Shown: piece by piece, positions 6,245-15,845 of the stretch
Layout: every line of letters begins with the position of its first letter
Position numbering within the stretch: position 1 is the first letter of the stretch
Source: a virus
Direction: 5' to 3' (one strand)
Length of the DNA: 20,437 nucleotides
IMG/VR virus record: IMGVR_UViG_3300034062_004288
Location: 1 to 20,437 of that record
The notes under the pieces: generated by a model
Databases searched by the model: none
Told to the model about the DNA's origin: nothing
What the model saw: the letters and a program-made list of their open reading frames with translations, nothing else
Made by a program: the position numbers and the translations under genes

Positions 6245-6351
6245 AGGTTAGGGGCGGTTAGGCAAGCATTCAAGGATGTCGTAAGTGCGTGTTTTTCTTG
6301 CCTTCCCGCGCACAGTTAGTAACGACTAAATTGACGCCCCGCCTACACAAT

Positions 6352-8265
6352 ATGATTCTCTGGATTGATTTTGAAACCCGTAGCCATTGCGACCTAAAGA
6401 AGCACGGCGTCTACAACTACGCGCAGGACGGTACAACCGAAGTGTTGTGTATGTCTTACGCGTTTGACGATGAAGATGTGCAGACGTGGACGTCCGGTCC
6501 ATTCCCCGAACGCGTACGCGACCACAAGGGCATGATTTACGCGCACAACGCAGCCTTTGAGCGTTTAATTTTTTGGTATGTGTTGCAGATTGATTTTAAG
6601 CTTGAGCAGTTCTTTTGTACCGCTGCCCAAGCCCGCGCTAACTGCGCGCCTGGTTCGCTTGAGGACGTGGGGCGCTTTGCAGGCGCAAGCATGAAAAAGG
6701 ATCACCGTGGCGCGCAACTTATCCGTGCGTTGTGCGTGCCGCCGTTTAAGGACGACCCTGCACTCATGCAGGAGCTAATAGAATATTGTGAGCAAGACGT
6801 GCGCGCCATGCGTGCGATTTCAAAAGGTCTGCGCACGTTGTCGGCAATTGAACTGGAGGATTACCATGTCAACGAAAGAATCAACGACCGCGGCGTCTTG
6901 GTGGACGTGCCTTTGTGCACAGCAGCCGTTGGATATTCCGAACGTGAAATCGAAGACATACAGTCCATTGTCCGAGAATCAACCAATGGAGAAATCACGT
7001 CGGTCCGCAGTCCGAAGATGCGCGAGTGGGTCAAAGAAAAAGTCGGCCCGCAAGCCCTAAAACTAATGGAGGTTGAAGATGGTAAGTACAGCATTGACAA
7101 GACAGTCCGCGCAAACCTTCTCGCGATGGACGACCCCGAAGAAGTACCGCCCAACGTCGCTGAAGTTATCCAGGCGGCCGACGATCTATGGGCGAGCTCG
7201 GTTGCTAAGTTCGCCCGCCTTAAAGACTTGGCGGACGTCGAGGATCACCGCGTTAGAGGCGCTTTTGTCTTCGCTGGCGGATCAGCTACTGGACGAGCTT
7301 CTAGCTACGGCGCCCAAGTCCACAACTTCACGCGAAAGTGCGCCGCTGAACCAGACTTGGTTAGGACAAGCATGGTTCGAGGACACTCCATCGTTCCCCA
7401 GTTTGGCAAAAGGATCACAGACGTCCTCAAGGGAATGCTTAGGCCGGCAATCATACCCGCTAAAGGAAAAGCCCTAATAGCGGCCGACTGGTCATCTATT
7501 GAAGCGCGCATGACCCCGTGGTTGTCCAATTGCGTGGCCGGCGATGCCAAGCTTGAATTGTTTGCGCGCGGCGAAGATGTTTATAAAGTCAACGCTGCCG
7601 TAACCTTTAATGTGCCAGTGTCCGAGGTCAACAAGGATCAACGCCAGATTGGAAAGGTTCAGGAACTTGCTTGCGGGTTTGCCGGTGGCGTGGGCGCTTT
7701 TGCAGCAATGGGACGCGCCTATGGTATTCACTTACCCGAGTCAGATGCGCGGCGCATGGTGGACGCTTGGCGGCGTGCTAATTCGTGGTCTGTACCCTAT
7801 TGGTCAAAGCTTGAGCACGCCTATACGGCCGCCATGCGGCACAAGGGGCATGAGTTTAGCGCGGGGCGTGTGACGTACCTGTTCGATGGTGTCCATCTAT
7901 GGTACGCTTTACCTTCGGGACGCGTCCTGTGTTACCCGTTTGCCAAAATCGAAGAAGAAGGTATCACTTATGCCAAAGCCGCTTGGAAACCCGCCGCCGA
8001 CGCCCGAGAATGGCCACGCGCAAGACTCTGGAAGGGACTTGCTTGCGAGAATATCACCCAAGCCGCTGCCAATGACGTGCTCCGATCCGCGCTACTACAA
8101 CTCGACGATGTCGTTCTTCACGTCCACGACGAAATCGTCATCGAATCCGCAGACCCCGAGCGCGCCCGCATCGAACTTGAGCGGGTGATGTGTACGCCGC
8201 CGGCTTGGGCAACTGGCCTACCCTTGGCTGTCGAGGCGAATATTATGCAAAGATACGGTAAGTAA
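6352..8265 (+). CDS. phage DNA polymerase, family A with 3'-5' exonuclease
   Basis: A 637-residue replicative polymerase. The N-terminal exonuclease has D6/E8 in WIDFETRS (Exo I), YAHNAAFE at 63-70 (Exo II) and YCEQD with D149 (Exo III). The polymerase domain has motif A ADWSSIEAR (D379), motif B around RQIGKVQELACGFAGG, and motif C HVHDE (D593). The order and length match phage-type Pol I enzymes lacking a 5' nuclease. The ATG at 6352 was chosen because ILWIDFET begins the exonuclease; the frame stays open to 6289, but those 21 residues match nothing. No clear ribosome site precedes 6352, so the true start deserves a check. The 107 bases before it hold no other gene. Confidence 0.95.
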   Translation: MILWIDFETRSHCDLKKHGVYNYAQDGTTEVLCMSYAFDDEDVQTWTSGPFPERVRDHKGMIYAHNAAFERLIFWYVLQIDFKLEQFFCTAAQARANCAPGSLEDVGRFAGASMKKDHRGAQLIRALCVPPFKDDPALMQELIEYCEQDVRAMRAISKGLRTLSAIELEDYHVNERINDRGVLVDVPLCTAAVGYSEREIEDIQSIVRESTNGEITSVRSPKMREWVKEKVGPQALKLMEVEDGKYSIDKTVRANLLAMDDPEEVPPNVAEVIQAADDLWASSVAKFARLKDLADVEDHRVRGAFVFAGGSATGRASSYGAQVHNFTRKCAAEPDLVRTSMVRGHSIVPQFGKRITDVLKGMLRPAIIPAKGKALIAADWSSIEARMTPWLSNCVAGDAKLELFARGEDVYKVNAAVTFNVPVSEVNKDQRQIGKVQELACGFAGGVGAFAAMGRAYGIHLPESDARRMVDAWRRANSWSVPYWSKLEHAYTAAMRHKGHEFSAGRVTYLFDGVHLWYALPSGRVLCYPFAKIEEEGITYAKAAWKPAADAREWPRARLWKGLACENITQAAANDVLRSALLQLDDVVLHVHDEIVIESADPERARIELERVMCTPPAWATGLPLAVEANIMQRYGK

Positions 8266-8312: not shown

Positions 8313-10610
8313 ATGAACTTTTTTGAGTATATTACAAAATTAGCCCCTGAGGGCGAAACCGTCTTATTTGTGCGACAAAAGCCGCAGCTAAAGGATGGCG
8401 CCTACCAATTCCACGCCGATGGCGCGATGAAGTGCACTTGGCCAGCCTCACTGCCCGAGAAGTACAACGGCAAGGGTGCGTGGTACGCCAATACGGCTAT
8501 GTTTATCGTGAGCCGTTTTAAAGATGGGCACCCGTCTGCGTCCATCGCCAACTGCGAGCGTGTCGGCTTTTTAGTGCTAGATGATGTCGGCACTAAATCC
8601 AAGCTGCCTCCGATCGAGCCCACTTGGAAAATCGAAACCTCCCCCGACAATTACCAGTGGGGCTACACCTTTGCGTTGGACGATCACCCGACCGTTGACG
8701 AATTCACCGCCGCTATCAAGGCGATTGCAGAGGCCGGCTACACCGACCCAGGGGCTACGAACGCCGTGCGCAATTTCCGGCTTCCTGAGTCGGTTAACTT
8801 AAAGCCTGGGCGCGACAATTTTGCCGCACGTTTAACCGAGTTTCACCCCGAGCGTGAGTTTAGCCTCGCCCAGATATGTGAGGCGTTAGAAGTCACCCCC
8901 GCCCCGATCGAGAACGCACGCTTTACACCCATACGCGTCGCAGACGATGGTAATGATGATGTCGTGATCTGGCTAAGCTCGAATAAACTTGTGCTCTCAC
9001 GCCCCAACCCCGAGGGTTGGATGGGGGTAGTGTGCCCCAACAACGCCGAGCATACCGACGGTAACCCCGAGGGTCGTTACAACCCCTCAATGCGCGCCTA
9101 CTGCTGTCTGCACTCGCATTGCCTAGACTTTGACTCGCAGACCTACCTAAACTGGGTAGCCGACCAAGGCGGTCCCGAGCACGCCCCAGGCCTTAGAGAC
9201 GAATTGCTCGCTTCCATGATGACGGGTGCGCTATCCAAATTGCAACCCACCGAGGCCTTCCCCGACCGTGCCGCTGAGATTATTGCGCAAGTCGAGCGCA
9301 AACAGCTTGGGCGCCTTGAAAAGGCCGAGTGGTTTACCCGTTTTGCTTACATCCAGAACGACGACAGTTATTTTGATATGGTCGAGCGCCGCGAAGTGTC
9401 ACGCTCAAGCTTTAACGCGATTTTTCGTCATATAGACTGCAAGAGTATCAACAACGCCAAGCGCCGTATTGAAGCTTCCGTATCATTTGACGAAAACCGA
9501 AACCAGTGCGGCGCCCCCTCCCTTGTAGGTGTCACCTACGCCGCGGGCGATAACGTGATCGTCGAGCGCAACGGCCTAACCTACGGTAACCGGTGGCGTG
9601 ATTTGCGCCCTGCGGCCGCCGCGGCCGATGTCACCCCGTGGCTCGAGCACTGTAAGCGCTTGGTGCCCGACCCCGCCGAGCTCAAGCATATATTCGATGT
9701 AATGGCCTTTACCCTACGCAACCCTAAGATCAAGCTTAATCACGCCGTGCTGCATGGCGGGCACCAGGGCTCGGGCAAGGACTCAATGTGGGCGCCCTTG
9801 TTTTGGGGTATCCGTGGCGTTAATGATGAGAACGTGCGAATTATGACGGCCGCGCAGTTGTTTAGCCAATTCCATTACCAATTAGAAACCGAAATCCTAG
9901 TCTTAAACGAATTACGCGAGCCCGAGGCGCGCGAGCGCCGAGCGCTTGCCAATATGCTTAAGCCCATAATTGCAGCACCCCCCGACACCCTGACGGTCAA
10001 TCGCAAGGGTTTGCACCCCTTCGATATGCCAAACCGCTTGTTTGTACTGGCCTTTTCGAACGACAGGGTAAGCATTACCCTAGACTCGGACGACCGCCGG
10101 TGGTTTTGCGTGTGGTCTAACGCCCCCAAGATGGAACCTGAGGAAAGCGCGCGCCTGTGGGCATGGTATGGCGCCGGCGGGTTGGCCGCGTGCACTGCGT
10201 GGCTTTATGCGCGTGACGTGAGCGCTTTTAATCCGGCCGCATCGCCCCCTGTAACTGACTTTAAGCGCAGCATGATTGAACAGGGTATGAGTAGCGCCGA
10301 GGCGTGGCTATACTCGCAGATATGCGAGCGCCAAGGCGAATTTGCCCGCGGCGTGATAGCAGGACCCTTTCAGGCGATTTGCGCGCGCCTAGCGGGCTCG
10401 GCGCCCTTGGGTGTAAAGACACCGCCGGCCGCGCTTATGCACGCGTTACAGGAGGCCGAGTGGATAGACTGCGGACGGGTAATGTCAACGGAATTGACGA
10501 CTAAAAAGCATATATTCGCGGCGCCCGATATGGCGCGACAGTACACTAAGTCCGATTTGCGGCGGATGGTGGAGACACCACCACCCCCTAAGATAGTCAA
10601 GACGGCCTGA
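8313..10610 (+). CDS. primase/helicase, RepB-like primase plus DUF5906-type helicase
   Basis: A 765-residue fusion likely to prime and unwind at the fork. The N-terminal third (through residue about 190, including FLVLDDVGTKSK and the RNFRLPESVNLK segment) resembles RepB-type/AEP primases of mobile elements. A Cys/His cluster follows (VCPNNAEH to AYCCLHSHC, about residues 240-272), probably binding zinc. The C-terminal half is a superfamily 3-type helicase of the DUF5906 group: Walker A GGHQGSGKD (482-490), Walker B ILVLNE (528-533) and the NRLFVLAFSNDRVSI sensor block, then DDRRWFCVWS. AGGAG lies 7 bases before ATG 8313. Its stop abuts the stop of a convergent micropeptide gene with no gap. 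Confidence 0.9.
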   Translation: MNFFEYITKLAPEGETVLFVRQKPQLKDGAYQFHADGAMKCTWPASLPEKYNGKGAWYANTAMFIVSRFKDGHPSASIANCERVGFLVLDDVGTKSKLPPIEPTWKIETSPDNYQWGYTFALDDHPTVDEFTAAIKAIAEAGYTDPGATNAVRNFRLPESVNLKPGRDNFAARLTEFHPEREFSLAQICEALEVTPAPIENARFTPIRVADDGNDDVVIWLSSNKLVLSRPNPEGWMGVVCPNNAEHTDGNPEGRYNPSMRAYCCLHSHCLDFDSQTYLNWVADQGGPEHAPGLRDELLASMMTGALSKLQPTEAFPDRAAEIIAQVERKQLGRLEKAEWFTRFAYIQNDDSYFDMVERREVSRSSFNAIFRHIDCKSINNAKRRIEASVSFDENRNQCGAPSLVGVTYAAGDNVIVERNGLTYGNRWRDLRPAAAAADVTPWLEHCKRLVPDPAELKHIFDVMAFTLRNPKIKLNHAVLHGGHQGSGKDSMWAPLFWGIRGVNDENVRIMTAAQLFSQFHYQLETEILVLNELREPEARERRALANMLKPIIAAPPDTLTVNRKGLHPFDMPNRLFVLAFSNDRVSITLDSDDRRWFCVWSNAPKMEPEESARLWAWYGAGGLAACTAWLYARDVSAFNPAASPPVTDFKRSMIEQGMSSAEAWLYSQICERQGEFARGVIAGPFQAICARLAGSAPLGVKTPPAALMHALQEAEWIDCGRVMSTELTTKKHIFAAPDMARQYTKSDLRRMVETPPPPKIVKTA

Positions 10611-10673
10611 TTACAGGTCGAAAGTCAGAATCATTAGAATGACTATTGCGGCCGCGATTAGTGAATAGGTCAT
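10611..10673 (-). CDS. 20-residue membrane micropeptide (putative)
   Basis: The minus strand encodes MTYSLIAAAIVILMILTFDL, a 20-residue peptide that is almost entirely one transmembrane helix. Its ATG overlaps the stop of the upstream gene by ATGA, as for its operon neighbours, and AAGGGG lies 11 bases upstream, a little far. Its TAA is directly adjacent to the primase TGA on the other strand. It is the last cistron of the leftward accessory operon. Small phage membrane peptides of this type include antiholins, superinfection-exclusion and host-modifying peptides; nothing here chooses between these. Because it is so short, the frame could be accidental. Confidence 0.45.
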   Translation of the reverse strand: MTYSLIAAAIVILMILTFDL

Positions 10674-10885
10674 AACGGCAGTAACCCCTTAAATAGGGGG
10701 TGCACGTTATCCCAATACGCGCCGATATCGCGCGGATATAGCGGGCGCAGGGTCCCGCTTTCGTCCATTGAGCGCGCGTAGACGTACCCGCTTTTCTGGT
10801 CGTATGAGTCAACGGTATACGGCCGATTTTTAACGTGCACGACGTCGCCATGCTCTACCGGCCGGCCATTAGTGTATTTAATCAT
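10670..10885 (-). CDS. hypothetical protein with beta-barrel-like pattern (71 aa)
   Basis: A 71-residue soluble protein. The segment GDVVHVKNRPYTVDSYDQ, then SGYVYARSMDESG, alternates hydrophobic and polar residues as in a small SH3-like barrel, with a Pro/Trp-rich end. No catalytic residues or metal ligands are seen and I do not recognise the family. ATG 10885 overlaps the upstream stop (ATGA), with GAGGTG 5 bases upstream. The last codons include a CCCCT/AGGGG mini-hairpin that could mask the ribosome site of the micropeptide that follows. Confidence 0.7.
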   Translation of the reverse strand: MIKYTNGRPVEHGDVVHVKNRPYTVDSYDQKSGYVYARSMDESGTLRPLYPRDIGAYWDNVHPLFKGLLPL

Positions 10886-12966: not shown

Positions 12967-13155
12967 TTAGATAATGAAATGAGGGTTAGACGTGAGCTCG
13001 TATGCGAGCGCTAATTTCAAAAGCGCGTCTTGTTGCGAGCGCTTGAGCGCTGCGCGGTACAGGCCGGAAATCACGCGCGCGGCGCTGTCGTTGTTGCCGC
13101 TGTTAGCGTGTTTGAGGGCCATTGCTACAATCTTGAATTGCTGTTTGTTTAGCAT
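12967..13155 (-). CDS. small basic helical protein, first gene of leftward operon (62 aa)
   Basis: A 62-residue protein, MLNKQQFKIVAMALKHANSG, then NNDSAARVISGLYRAALKRS and LLKLALAYELTSNP. Three or four helices are predicted by eye, with a basic surface. GGAG lies 8 bases before ATG 13155. As promoter-proximal gene next to the repeat-filled control region it could be a DNA-binding regulator or a host take-over protein, but no clear helix-turn-helix is seen. I do not recognise the family. Confidence 0.72.
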   Translation of the reverse strand: MLNKQQFKIVAMALKHANSGNNDSAARVISGLYRAALKRSQQDALLKLALAYELTSNPHFII

Positions 13156-13255: not shown

Positions 13256-13334
13256 GCAATAGTTTGCGTCTATGCTATGAATAAGCGCGAAATAGTCACG
13301 GTCTAAGCCATCGGAAAGCCGCATAAATAAACGA

Positions 13335-13351
13335 TCTAAGTCATATAGTCA
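13335..13351 (-). repeat. inverted copy of the 17-base unit (15/17)
   Basis: TCTAAGTCATATAGTCA matches, in inverted orientation, the 17-base element TGACTATATCGCTTAGA that ends the duplicated 43-base unit, differing at two central positions. A fragment, ATAGTCACG next to TCTAAG, also occurs at 13292-13307. It shows that this element is present in both orientations within the control region. Confidence 0.55.
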
Positions 13352-13384
13352 CGTTTTGGAGGAAAAGTAAAAATTTTAATCTTA

Positions 13385-13404
13385 CACTGTATGGATATAC
13401 AGTA
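13385..13404. promoter_or_regulatory. LexA-like SOS box
   Basis: The core CTGTATGGATATACAG (13387-13402) fits the CTGT-N8-ACAG operator used by LexA of beta- and gammaproteobacteria, and 17 of 20 positions match the palindromic consensus including the flanking A and TA. It is embedded in the control region between the leftward promoter and the repeats. If functional, host DNA damage would change phage transcription here. A phage-encoded repressor with a similar site is an alternative. Confidence 0.5.
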
Positions 13405-13428
13405 GTTTATAGGATAAGGGAGCGCACG

Positions 13429-13471
13429 CGGTTTGGCCAGCGATTTCTCCGGCATGACTATATCGCTTAGA
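13429..13471 (+). repeat. 43-base repeat, copy 1
   Basis: The unit starts with CGGTTTGGCC, has a 16-base variable middle, and ends with the 17-base element TGACTATATCGCTTAGA (13455-13471). The second copy is at 13608-13650, with both conserved ends identical and the same spacing. A partial third element, TGACTATATC, follows copy 1 at 13472-13481. Confidence 0.75.
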
Positions 13472-13515
13472 TGACTATATCTTGCCAATTTGACAAGTAT
13501 TATTTTAAGCATAAA

Positions 13516-13741
13516 CTCACTAAGTCTTAGTCTTTATGCTCACTAAGTCTTAGTATTGTGCTCACTAAGTCTTAGTGCCTGGGCTCACTAAGTCTTAGTA
13601 TTGTGTTCGGTTTGGCCGTCAATTTTGCGGCCGTGACTATATCGCTTAGAACGCTGTACTCACTAAGTCTTAGTGCATTGTGCAGTGCAGCATTGTGCAG
13701 TGCAGCATTGTGCAGTGCAGCATTACTCACTAAGTCTTAGT
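13516..13741 (+). repeat. six 16-base palindromic repeats (iteron-like array)
   Basis: CTCACTAAGTCTTAGT occurs exactly at 13516-13531, 13539-13554, 13561-13576, 13584-13599, 13659-13674 and 13726-13741. The core ACTAAG-T-CTTAGT is a perfect palindrome around one central base. The first four are spaced 23, 22 and 23 bases start to start, about two helical turns; the next intervals are 75 and 67. A degenerate version (CTAAG-N5-CTTAG) is at 13764-13778. Exact conservation and phasing point to binding by a dimeric protein, as at iteron origins, enhancers or packaging sites. Confidence 0.88.
13608..13650 (+). repeat. 43-base repeat, copy 2
   Basis: Second copy of the unit described at 13429-13471, offset by 179 bases. 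It sits between the fourth and fifth 16-base palindromic repeats and replaces what would be three further positions of the phased array. Confidence 0.75.
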
Positions 13742-13757
13742 GGCATTGTGCAGTGCA
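13675..13757 (+). repeat. 15-base repeat, three tandem copies plus one
   Basis: GCATTGTGCAGTGCA is repeated head to tail at 13675-13689, 13690-13704 and 13705-13719, followed by a six-base fragment, the sixth palindromic repeat, and a fourth copy at 13743-13757. The fourth copy runs into CAA so that TTGTGCAGTGCACAA becomes a perfect 15-base palindrome. The array lies about 160-245 bases before the small terminase start. Confidence 0.85.
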
Positions 13758-13816
13758 CAAACACTAAGCAAACCTTAGGCCAGGAGCTGCAAGCAAAAAG
13801 CTAAAAAATCCTTGAT

Positions 13817-13880
13817 GGGGGGGGTAGGGCCCTGGCCGACAGGTCCTAGTTTACGCAGGGTCTGCTAACAATTTTTTTTT
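13817..13880. other. G8 and T9 homopolymer runs before the terminase genes
   Basis: Eight Gs (13817-13824) followed by TAGGGCCCTGG, and nine Ts (13872-13880), lie in the 100 bases before the small terminase. Cohesive-end phages often have their ends at such a position; this is a position argument only. The G-run plus nearby GGG could also form a quadruplex-like structure. Homopolymers are also typical sites of sequencing error. Confidence 0.3.
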
Positions 13881-13882
13881 AT

Positions 13883-13911
13883 TTGCAAAACGGGAAACCG
13901 GTCTATATACT
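13883..13911 (+). promoter_or_regulatory. promoter for the terminase/virion operon
   Basis: TTGCAA (13883-13888), exactly 17 bases, TATACT (13906-13911). The -10 matches 5 of 6 consensus positions. Expected transcription start is at about 13918, immediately before the ATG at 13919, which has no ribosome site, so the first gene may be translated from a leaderless mRNA. The -35 hexamer is the same as in the leftward promoter at 13212-13217. Confidence 0.55.
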
Positions 13912-13918
13912 GACAACC

Positions 13919-14398
13919 ATGTTCGAATCCTTCCCGCTCTCCATCCGGCAAATCAAAGCCACAGAGTCGCGCTTAAAGGCGATCTACGACGCCGCTAAGT
14001 TAGGACTCTCGGGCGACTCGTTGGCGCTTGCCGCTGGCATGTTACCGGCCGAATATCGGATATTGTGCCAGGTTGATCCGGTGGCCGAGCACGCCGCGGT
14101 TAAAGGCAAAGCGGATGGCGAGCGCGAGATGTCGATGGTGCTGCACGACGCCGCACGTAATGGTGACGCTAAGGCGGCACTTGAGATACTCAAGCACAAG
14201 CACGATTGGGTCGCCAAGCAACAGATCAATGTAGATGTTGAACAGCGCATCAGCGTCATCGCCGCGCTTGAACAGGGCGAGAAGCGTGTGATAGACATTA
14301 CGCACTTACAGGACGACACACTTGCAGACAACAATATACTCAGCGCAGGACGAACAAGAGTTAATGGCGAGGCTGTGGTCGCCCGCGATCAGAGATAA
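13919..14398 (+). CDS. terS: terminase small subunit
   Basis: A 159-residue protein expected to recognise the packaging site and recruit the large terminase. The N-terminal part, ESRLKAIYDAAKLGLSGDSL through ALAAGMLPAEYRIL, has the pattern of the small-terminase helix-turn-helix. A helical middle follows (AALEILKHKHDW), and then a tail that contacts the large subunit in known systems. ATG 13919 is used; the frame also permits TTG 13883, but that would lie in the -35 box. It overlaps the large terminase by up to 77 bases. The repeat array just upstream is a natural candidate for its binding site. Assignment rests on position plus sequence style. Confidence 0.78.
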   Translation: MFESFPLSIRQIKATESRLKAIYDAAKLGLSGDSLALAAGMLPAEYRILCQVDPVAEHAAVKGKADGEREMSMVLHDAARNGDAKAALEILKHKHDWVAKQQINVDVEQRISVIAALEQGEKRVIDITHLQDDTLADNNILSAGRTRVNGEAVVARDQR

Positions 14399-15845
14399 CC
14401 CTTTAGCGTTTGTTGCGTTAGTATTCCCGTGGGGCGTCAAGGGTACGCCTCTGGAGCATTTCTCGGGGCCACGCAAATGGCAACGGGTGGTGCTCCAGCA
14501 GATCGGCGATCATATTGCGCAGAACAAGGGTAAGGTTGACTTTGACACGCTACGCCAATCGGTAAGCTCGGGGCGCGGTATTGGCAAGTCAGCACTTGTC
14601 AGTTGGATTACGATCTGGATGCTGTCCACCAGGATCGGCTCGACGACCATCATATCGGCAAACTCTGAGTCCCAGCTTAGGTCAGTCACTTGGGCGGAGA
14701 TCACTAAATGGTTGGCGATGGCGATTAACAGCCATTGGTTTGAGGTGTCAGCCACCCGCCTCATGCCCGCCAAATGGTTAACGGAACTGGTTGAGCGCGA
14801 CTTAAAGAAAGGCACACGCTACTGGTCGGTGGAAGGCAGACTCTGGTCGAGCGAGAATCCAGACGCGTACGCCGGTGTGCACAACTACGACGGCGTGATG
14901 GTGATCTTTGATGAGGCCTCGGGTATTGACGACGCCATCTGGGCGGTGACCTCTGGGTTCTTTACGGAAAACACACCGAACCGCTTCTGGTTGGCGTTTT
15001 CTAACCCTCGGCGTAACTCGGGCTACTTCTATGAGTGCTTTCACGCCAAGCGTGAGTTCTGGCGCACACAAGTCGTGGACGCGAGGACAGTCGAGGGTAC
15101 GGACAAAGCGGTCTATCAGCAGATTATTGACGAATACGGGCCGGATTCAAGTCAGGCGCACGTAGAAGTCTATGGTGAGTTTCCGAACGCGAGCGATGAT
15201 CAGTTCATCTCGGCGCAAACGGTGGATGATGCCATGAAGCGCCCCCGCTATAAGGATCAGTCTGCACCCATTGTGTTGGGTGTTGACCCCGCACGGTTCG
15301 GGGCGGATGCGACAGTGATCGCGGTCAGGCAAGGGCGCGACATTATTGACATCAAACGCTACCGCGGCGACGACACGATGACGGTGGTCGGCCACATTAT
15401 CGAGGCGATCGAGGAATATTCACCCGCGATGGTCGTGATTGACGAGGGCGGCGTGGGCGGAGGGGTGGTTGATCGCTTAAAAGAGCAGCGCTACAAGATA
15501 CGGGGTGTGAATTTTGGTAATAAATCTAAAAATCCGCTCATGTACGGCAACAAACGCGCTGAGATGTGGGGCTCGATGCGTGAATGGTTGAAGTCTGCGT
15601 CTATTCCGTCTGACAGAATGCTCAAAAGCGACCTGATTTCGCCCATGATGAAGCCTGACTCCAAAGGCACAATCTTTTTAGAGAGTAAGAAGGATATGCG
15701 GTCTCGTGGGTTGGCATCCCCTGACGCAGCGGATGCAATATGTGTCACGTTTGCGTTTCCGATGGCGCATCGTGAAACTGTTGACAAGACCCCACGCAGG
15801 GGGTATTCTGCGGGCGGAGTACTAACGTCATGGATGGGCGCGTAG
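14322..15845 (+). CDS. terL: terminase large subunit
   Basis: A 507-residue packaging motor. The ATPase domain has an adenine-binding GPRKWQ block (49-54), Walker A GRGIGKS (84-90), Walker B VIFDEA (D197/E198) and the coupling motif FSNPRR. The C-terminal RNase H-like nuclease has D322 in GVDPARFGADATV, VVIDEGGVGGGVVDRL, and the final acidic pair in SPDAADA (D468/D471). It uses ATP to drive DNA into the prohead and cuts the concatemer. The TTG start at 14322 has AGGA 8 bases upstream; ATG 14364 (493 residues) is the alternative. The next gene starts directly after its stop. Confidence 0.95.
   Translation: MQTTIYSAQDEQELMARLWSPAIRDNPLAFVALVFPWGVKGTPLEHFSGPRKWQRVVLQQIGDHIAQNKGKVDFDTLRQSVSSGRGIGKSALVSWITIWMLSTRIGSTTIISANSESQLRSVTWAEITKWLAMAINSHWFEVSATRLMPAKWLTELVERDLKKGTRYWSVEGRLWSSENPDAYAGVHNYDGVMVIFDEASGIDDAIWAVTSGFFTENTPNRFWLAFSNPRRNSGYFYECFHAKREFWRTQVVDARTVEGTDKAVYQQIIDEYGPDSSQAHVEVYGEFPNASDDQFISAQTVDDAMKRPRYKDQSAPIVLGVDPARFGADATVIAVRQGRDIIDIKRYRGDDTMTVVGHIIEAIEEYSPAMVVIDEGGVGGGVVDRLKEQRYKIRGVNFGNKSKNPLMYGNKRAEMWGSMREWLKSASIPSDRMLKSDLISPMMKPDSKGTIFLESKKDMRSRGLASPDAADAICVTFAFPMAHRETVDKTPRRGYSAGGVLTSWMGA

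Follow-up and report, generated by a model that had tools for sequence, protein, structure and literature searches.

A repeat-filled slot upstream of the terminase genes is very probably the replication origin of a freshwater phage family

The window analyzed here, the whole 20,437-base virus record IMGVR_UViG_3300034062_004288, comes from a podophage-like genome in which a block of repeats separates two divergent operons. Our subject is this repeat slot (about 13285-13780), where DNA replication very probably begins in a family of freshwater phages. All data are sequences, mostly metagenomic fragments. The gene order is SNF2 helicase, VRR nuclease-like gene, DUF2800, PolA and VapE/DUF5906, followed by a leftward operon of small genes and, beyond the slot, a rightward operon with the small terminase (TerS), the large terminase (TerL) and a P22-type portal. 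PolA, a family A DNA polymerase (6289-8265, plus strand, Pfam), belongs to the same module as the VapE primase-helicase (8313-10610, plus strand; Pfam DUF5906, Foldseek, models and covariation). A 71-residue open reading frame (ORF) adjoins VapE (10670-10885, minus strand), and the first leftward gene beside the slot is a 62-residue ORF (12967-13155, minus strand). TerS (13919-14398, plus strand, start codon inferred) has no Pfam match and was assigned from its position, conservation and helix-turn-helix (HTH)-like sequence; TerL (14322-15845, plus strand) was assigned by tblastn to annotated terminases. Two small minus-strand ORFs, 13336-13512 and 13572-13730, overlap the repeats; both are taken as non-coding because the repeats run through them and the slot is too variable among relatives for a gene. 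The repeat region matched nothing in phage records (BLASTN) or Rfam, and a pair-pattern scan of genome contigs gave no match.

Two sets of repeats share the slot. The first, on which a preliminary description of this DNA had centered, is CTCACTAAGTCTTAGT, and the six exact copies claimed there are present, all on the plus strand (13516-13531, 13539-13554, 13561-13576, 13584-13599, 13659-13674 and 13726-13741), where shuffled sequence would be expected to yield 0.07 matches with up to three mismatches allowed. Every copy contains the 13-bp odd palindrome ACTAAG-T-CTTAGT, and successive copies are spaced by 23, 22, 23, 75, and 67 bases. Copy 1 overlaps the -10 element of a promoter-like TTGACA-16-TAAACT directed at TerS (13490-13517, plus strand, by consensus match only). 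The 15-base tandem repeats of the same description were also recovered, as three tandem copies of GCATTGTGCAGTGCA (13675-13719, plus strand) and a fourth at 13743-13757, and its setting, non-coding DNA between divergent operons, held once the two overlapping ORFs were set aside. A degenerate relative of the array unit, CTAAG-N5-CTTAG, lies at 13764-13778 and is kept in the close relatives L010, L033, and L154.

The second set, retrieved by pattern search, is built on TGACTAT. On the minus strand, an outer copy of TGACTAT (13292-13298) and TGACTATAT (13343-13351), the latter immediately followed by TGACTTAGA, make up a left arm; in the opposite orientation, TGACTATAT occurs on the plus strand at 13455-13463 and 13472-13480. 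The core between the arms (13354-13454) is 59% AT, against a window mean of 48.6%, and holds a LexA/SOS-type box, CTGTATGGATATACAG, at 13387-13402. The duplicated 43-base unit noted earlier combines a G+C-rich stretch with a right-arm iteron; it is the right arm of the predicted origin, present twice (13429-13471 and 13608-13650, both plus strand, the second with TGACTATAT at 13634-13642), and the copies are 81% identical, not exact. Immediately to the right of the right arm lies the palindrome TTGCCAATTTGACAA (13482-13496), with similar forms in 10 of the 38 distinct regions that bear the array motif.

The wider family indicates which of the two sets is general. The preliminary description had looked to phages of the same gene order for an array at the same place; the outcome was mixed, in that many relatives lack this motif, yet most still carry some repeat array in the slot. 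Motif-free relatives often have 6 to 16 copies of a lineage-specific 9-mer in both orientations, frequently arranged as a pair of inverted arms that flank a core of about 100 bp, and the 9-mer sequence differs from lineage to lineage. A simple detector found inverted tandem arms in 61 of 116 distinct regions, compared with 2.6% of shuffled sequence, and in these 61 relatives the core has a median length of 100 bp and a mean AT content of 61%. In L082 and L101, the DNA upstream of TerS carries 13 and 16 9-mers, respectively, that differ by at most one mismatch from TGTGGATAA, which is the Escherichia coli DnaA box TTATCCACA in reverse complement. Unlike DnaA boxes, the 9-mers of other lineages differ and follow VapE. 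A DnaA-like phage protein was considered as a general reader of the iterons and rejected, DnaA domain IV being present in only 2 of 28 phage records; small phage proteins matching this domain family (Bac_DnaA_C) were seen in L053 (7083-7379), G027, and G030. By eye, small ORFs of the leftward operon in G003 (30268-30852) and L030 (6148-6810) resemble a sliding clamp fragment.

We followed the 9-mers along the gene trees of 37 motif-free relatives with VapE, TerS, and TerL, 23 of which also have PolA. With 9-mer classes set by our own patterns and related contigs counted although non-independent, 7 class changes were needed on the VapE tree (shuffled minimum, 16), as opposed to 13 on the TerL tree and 15 on the TerS tree, the latter no better than shuffled (shuffled minimum, 15); shuffled labels require about 20. 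On the PolA tree, 10 changes compared with 12.5 for shuffled labels. Simple linkage predicts the opposite pattern, since only a few hundred bases separate the repeats from TerS, against 2.5 to 3 kb from VapE. Within VapE, the fit improves from 12 changes for the N terminus to 8 for the C terminus. When all VapE columns were ranked by normalized mutual information, residue 729 came first, and residues 727 and 724 were among the top five; the three fall in a predicted wing (about residues 724-731), the loop between the last two strands in a model of the last 126 residues. This model (predicted TM score, 0.64) has the order helix-strand-helix-helix-strand-strand, that of a winged helix. Class A 9-mers (TTGTCCACA) occur with K724 and D729 in 12 of 12 cases and class B 9-mers (TGACCYAA) with A724 in 11 of 11, in a table of 41 related rows that do not represent 41 independent events. 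The stronger part of the wing evidence is the recurrence of these associations in several backgrounds, together with a near-identical pair. The helicases of L115 and L117 are 97.2% identical, and 12 of their 21 differences lie beyond residue 700, including A724K, G727R, Y728H, and Q729D in the wing; their iterons differ as well (GCCAACA versus TTGTCCACA). Around the window itself, the iterons persist in L033 and L150 (helicase, 97%) and in L151 (94%) and are changed in L152, whose TerS is nearly the same.

Natural module swaps separate the arms from the terminase genes. The chimeric phages G026 and G028 have the same replication module (VapE at 59% identity) next to an unrelated terminase and portal; they lack a homolog of this TerL and keep inverted arms 2.5 to 3 kb downstream of VapE. 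They also lack a G-tract element that is otherwise found across the family upstream of TerS or TerL and that in the window reads GGGGGGGGTAGGGCCCTGG (13817-13835, plus strand). Conversely, L073 and L074 keep TerL and the G-tract and have neither a VapE match nor 9-mer arms. Since the arms are kept without the terminase and the G-tract without VapE, the arms belong to replication and the G-tract to the terminase side. The G-tract (GGGGGTAGGGCC), absent from phages with another terminase, is followed by a T-tract, ACAATTTTTTTTTAT (13868-13882, plus strand), just upstream of TerS or, if TerS is missing, of TerL; the whole element (13817-13882) is a candidate packaging (pac) site or late promoter. 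In L074, at about 9675-9730, two parS-like sites (TGTTCCACGTGAAACA) stand upstream of TerL, and in G026 a similar-looking 61-residue ORF occupies the position matching the 62-residue ORF of the window.

The sequences themselves show the array and how it is conserved, and they show 9-mers that covary with the helicase and its wing and do not depend on the terminase. From these findings, we consider it highly probable that the region is an origin read by VapE. In the mechanism that we propose, VapE would bind the iterons (TGACTATAT in the window) through its C-terminal winged helix; the iterons, as a pair of inverted arms, would enclose a core of about 100 bp, where VapE hexamers loaded in opposite orientations could melt the DNA and prime synthesis, to be extended by the phage PolA. 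An origin for the phage's own primase system was among the options raised in the preliminary description, and it is strongly supported for the region, by way of the TGACTAT 9-mers and not of the 16-base array. The CTCACTAAGTCTTAG array beside the origin may then serve a phage-encoded factor as an accessory site for control or priming. The complete account, in which the slot is the origin, VapE reads its iterons, and the array is a second, clade-restricted element beside it, seems to us probable, with somewhat less assurance than the origin itself.

Several observations weigh against this account. Cumulative GC skew, proposed earlier as a check, gave no clear origin signal. The arms of the window are less regular than those of motif-free relatives; only 7 of 38 motif-bearing regions have arms that the strict detector picks up, and the window is not among them. 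The covariation was measured in motif-free relatives and extends to the window by homology, and the winged helix rests on topology, with weak Foldseek matches (best E value, 0.055) beside the strong covariation. Array copies drop to 0 to 2 in several of the closest relatives, so the array is not needed in all of them. The 9-mers might also follow VapE only because both lie on the same recombining segment, and might mark a feature that is not an origin: the slot is only 2.5 to 3 kb from the 3' end of VapE, and PolA, which is farther off, fits less well. However, TerS is much closer and does not fit the 9-mer classes, the covariation concentrates in the wing of a predicted DNA-binding domain, near-identical pair included, and hitchhiking is hard to reconcile with arms that survive replacement of the whole terminase module. 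We therefore regard this explanation as improbable.

The 16-base array has a different distribution. We scanned 2.9 million viral contigs for the exact 16-mer and obtained 46 contigs; a scan for two 15-mers within 25 bases gave a partly overlapping set of 45. The array recurs in related phages, a check that the preliminary description had proposed: about 45 related contigs with homologs of the window's genes carry 2 to 9 copies at the equivalent place, with the leftward operon on one side and TerS on the other; some contigs with a single 16-mer are unrelated and probably chance matches. Across 39 distinct arrays, the conserved unit is R-CTCACTAAGTCTTAG-B, with 162 of 181 copies exact and 18 with one mismatch, nearly always at position 8. 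This exactness is partly ascertained, because most motif-bearing contigs were recruited through the motif itself; a match to a single 16-mer or pair was enough, however, which left the other copies free. Neither the flanks nor the spacers are conserved. Over the full length of 13 records, each genome has one array cluster, reduced to a single copy in L151 and joined by one outlier copy in the L030 lineage. Among relatives recruited by TerL, only 3 of 80 (L010, L071, and L072) carry the array, which thus marks a minority branch. In three motif-free phages (L111, L121, and L138), the DNA upstream of TerS contains degenerate arrays with similar half-sites, CTAAGTTAGTG and GTGAGTGCT.ACTAAC, perhaps a looser form of the 15-mer element.

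The preliminary description had read the array as phased palindromes bound cooperatively by a dimer on one face of the DNA. The palindrome is present in each copy in the window, but the unit conserved across relatives is an asymmetric 15-mer: variation falls on position 8 but never on position 10, its mirror, and CTCA lacks a mirrored counterpart. Likewise, the spacings of 23, 22, and 23 bp are as described, but at 10.5 bp per turn they impose successive rotations of 69, 34, and 69 degrees, which leaves copies 1 to 4 at 0, 69, 103, and 171 degrees and copy 4 pointing away from copy 1. In relatives, center spacings range over 13 to 25, 28, 35, 45, and more. A Rayleigh test of phasing (R = 0.44 at 10.5 bp, nominally significant) was set aside because the spacings are non-independent and do no more than cluster at 18 to 25, a range that covers most of a helical turn. 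Since the unit is asymmetric and the copies rotate from 0 to 171 degrees, the proposed dimer on one face is not supported; neither two-fold constraint nor integral-turn spacing, the marks of a symmetric operator array on one DNA face, was found.

A search of 301 genomes from the likely host family, to which a Rhodoferax metagenome-assembled genome (MAG) carrying a relative belongs, gave no exact match to the motif; the host itself was guessed from Burkholderiales MAG contigs. A host regulatory site would be expected in host genomes too, and the lack of any match in these genomes of a guessed host favors a phage factor. Gene trees cannot name the partner protein, since motif-bearing phages form nearly one clade on every tree. 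The 71-residue ORF beside VapE, which 10 of the 11 motif-bearing genomes examined have and none of the 8 motif-free ones, was the best candidate among clade-confined genes; it was rejected, as its sequence resembles a small beta-barrel and not a specific DNA binder and as L030 lacks it. In our view, a phage protein uses the array for regulation or priming. Our leading guess, that the array is an accessory of the origin, is a tentative one that we place slightly short of even. It is possible, though we would not expect it, that the 15-mer represents an undescribed form of origin control, with many strand-specific sites that may be recognized in single-stranded form, whether by the primase domain or by a small phage protein specific to this clade.

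The array could instead be an operator, at which a phage or host regulator acting on the 15-mers switches TerS (late) or the leftward operon. Copy 1 overlaps the promoter-like site, which is not obviously conserved in relatives; L030 has one extra motif copy directly upstream of its first leftward gene; and LexA-type boxes are common in motif-bearing regions (strict CTGT-N8-ACAG boxes in 25 of 38 distinct regions, versus 13 of 78 motif-free ones), alternating with the 15-mer copies in the L016 lineage. Operators, however, usually tolerate variation, whereas these copies are nearly all exact or differ at one position, and no HTH regulator was recognized among the ORFs of the near-complete relative G001 (by eye) or the window proteins scanned with Pfam. 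We consider an operator unlikely. A pac site bound by TerS, as in SPP1-type phages, where repeats adjoin the small terminase gene, was another option of the preliminary description. The array does adjoin terS, contig ends are scattered relative to TerL in a way that suits headful packaging, and on the TerS tree motif-bearing phages are a single clade with one loss, set apart by three TerS columns. Yet copy number ranges from 0 to 6 with near-identical TerS proteins (2, 1, 1, and 0 copies in L152, L071, L151, and L154), no residue in the TerS recognition helix tracks the motif (motif-bearing L069 equals motif-free L106 and L137), and it is the G-tract, not the array, that follows the terminase across the family; packaging is thus weakened to a doubtful option. 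Finally, a functionless byproduct of recent duplication or a micro-mobile repeat would suit the 0 to 6 copies among the closest relatives but is highly improbable for an element kept at one location per genome, whose 15-mer stays the same against unconserved flanks and spacers and a TerS that has diverged to 45% identity.

Among known systems, the slot most resembles the origins of Staphylococcus aureus pathogenicity islands (SaPIs) and other phage-inducible chromosomal islands (PICIs), with Rep or Pri-Rep and iterons, as far as the excerpts of those descriptions extend (PMC6092414, PMC7581432). The initiator is likewise an SF3/D5-type primase-helicase: the window VapE (DUF5906) matches the SaPI5 structures 7ola and 7pds (Foldseek). 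Unlike those origins, which lie immediately 3' of the initiator gene, this one is 2.7 kb downstream behind the small-gene operon, a distance of 2.5 to 3 kb in G026 and G028 too, and SOS boxes often occur in its core. The phages are apparently virulent and, unlike satellites, have their own capsid genes. G001 encodes its own structural and terminase genes, inspection of its ORFs recognized no integrase or repressor, and, judged on this genome, the family does not fit the PICI pattern of a satellite with integrase, attachment site, and helper dependence. The same excerpts describe no counterpart of the near-invariant 15-mer array (PMC6092414, PMC7581432).

The best solved relative of VapE is the NrS-1 primase-polymerase (PDB IDs 6k9c, 6k9e, and 6lrb), with SaPI5 further off; its C-terminal region matches the helicase part of VapE (sequence E value, 7.5e-12; Foldseek E value, 3.7e-13). 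In the available portion of its description, de novo priming by NrS-1 depends largely on an 8-nucleotide recognition sequence with one copy per strand in mid-genome, the basis of site recognition is stated as not clear, and, unlike in the window, there are two sites only and no arrays are mentioned (PMC7102993). By description, the alpha protein of phage P4 is comparable, being a primase-helicase whose binding sites are short iterons in a non-coding origin (ori, crr). P4 has itself been compared with PICIs in the part of the account consulted (PMC6092414).

Our analysis suggests that a large family of freshwater phages, with at least 599 TerL relatives in one scan, carries as a standard feature the two-armed iteron origin that was described as unique to phage satellites (PMC6092414). 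The family offers a natural series of helicase-origin pairs, one of them near-identical, that would allow a direct test of the code by which this class of helicase reads DNA. The unvarying 15-mer array next to the origin is a precise and testable unknown. If the array is indeed an undescribed form of origin control, these phages would carry two codes with different ends, in which the helicase iterons diversify and keep related replicons apart while the 15-mer stays locked.
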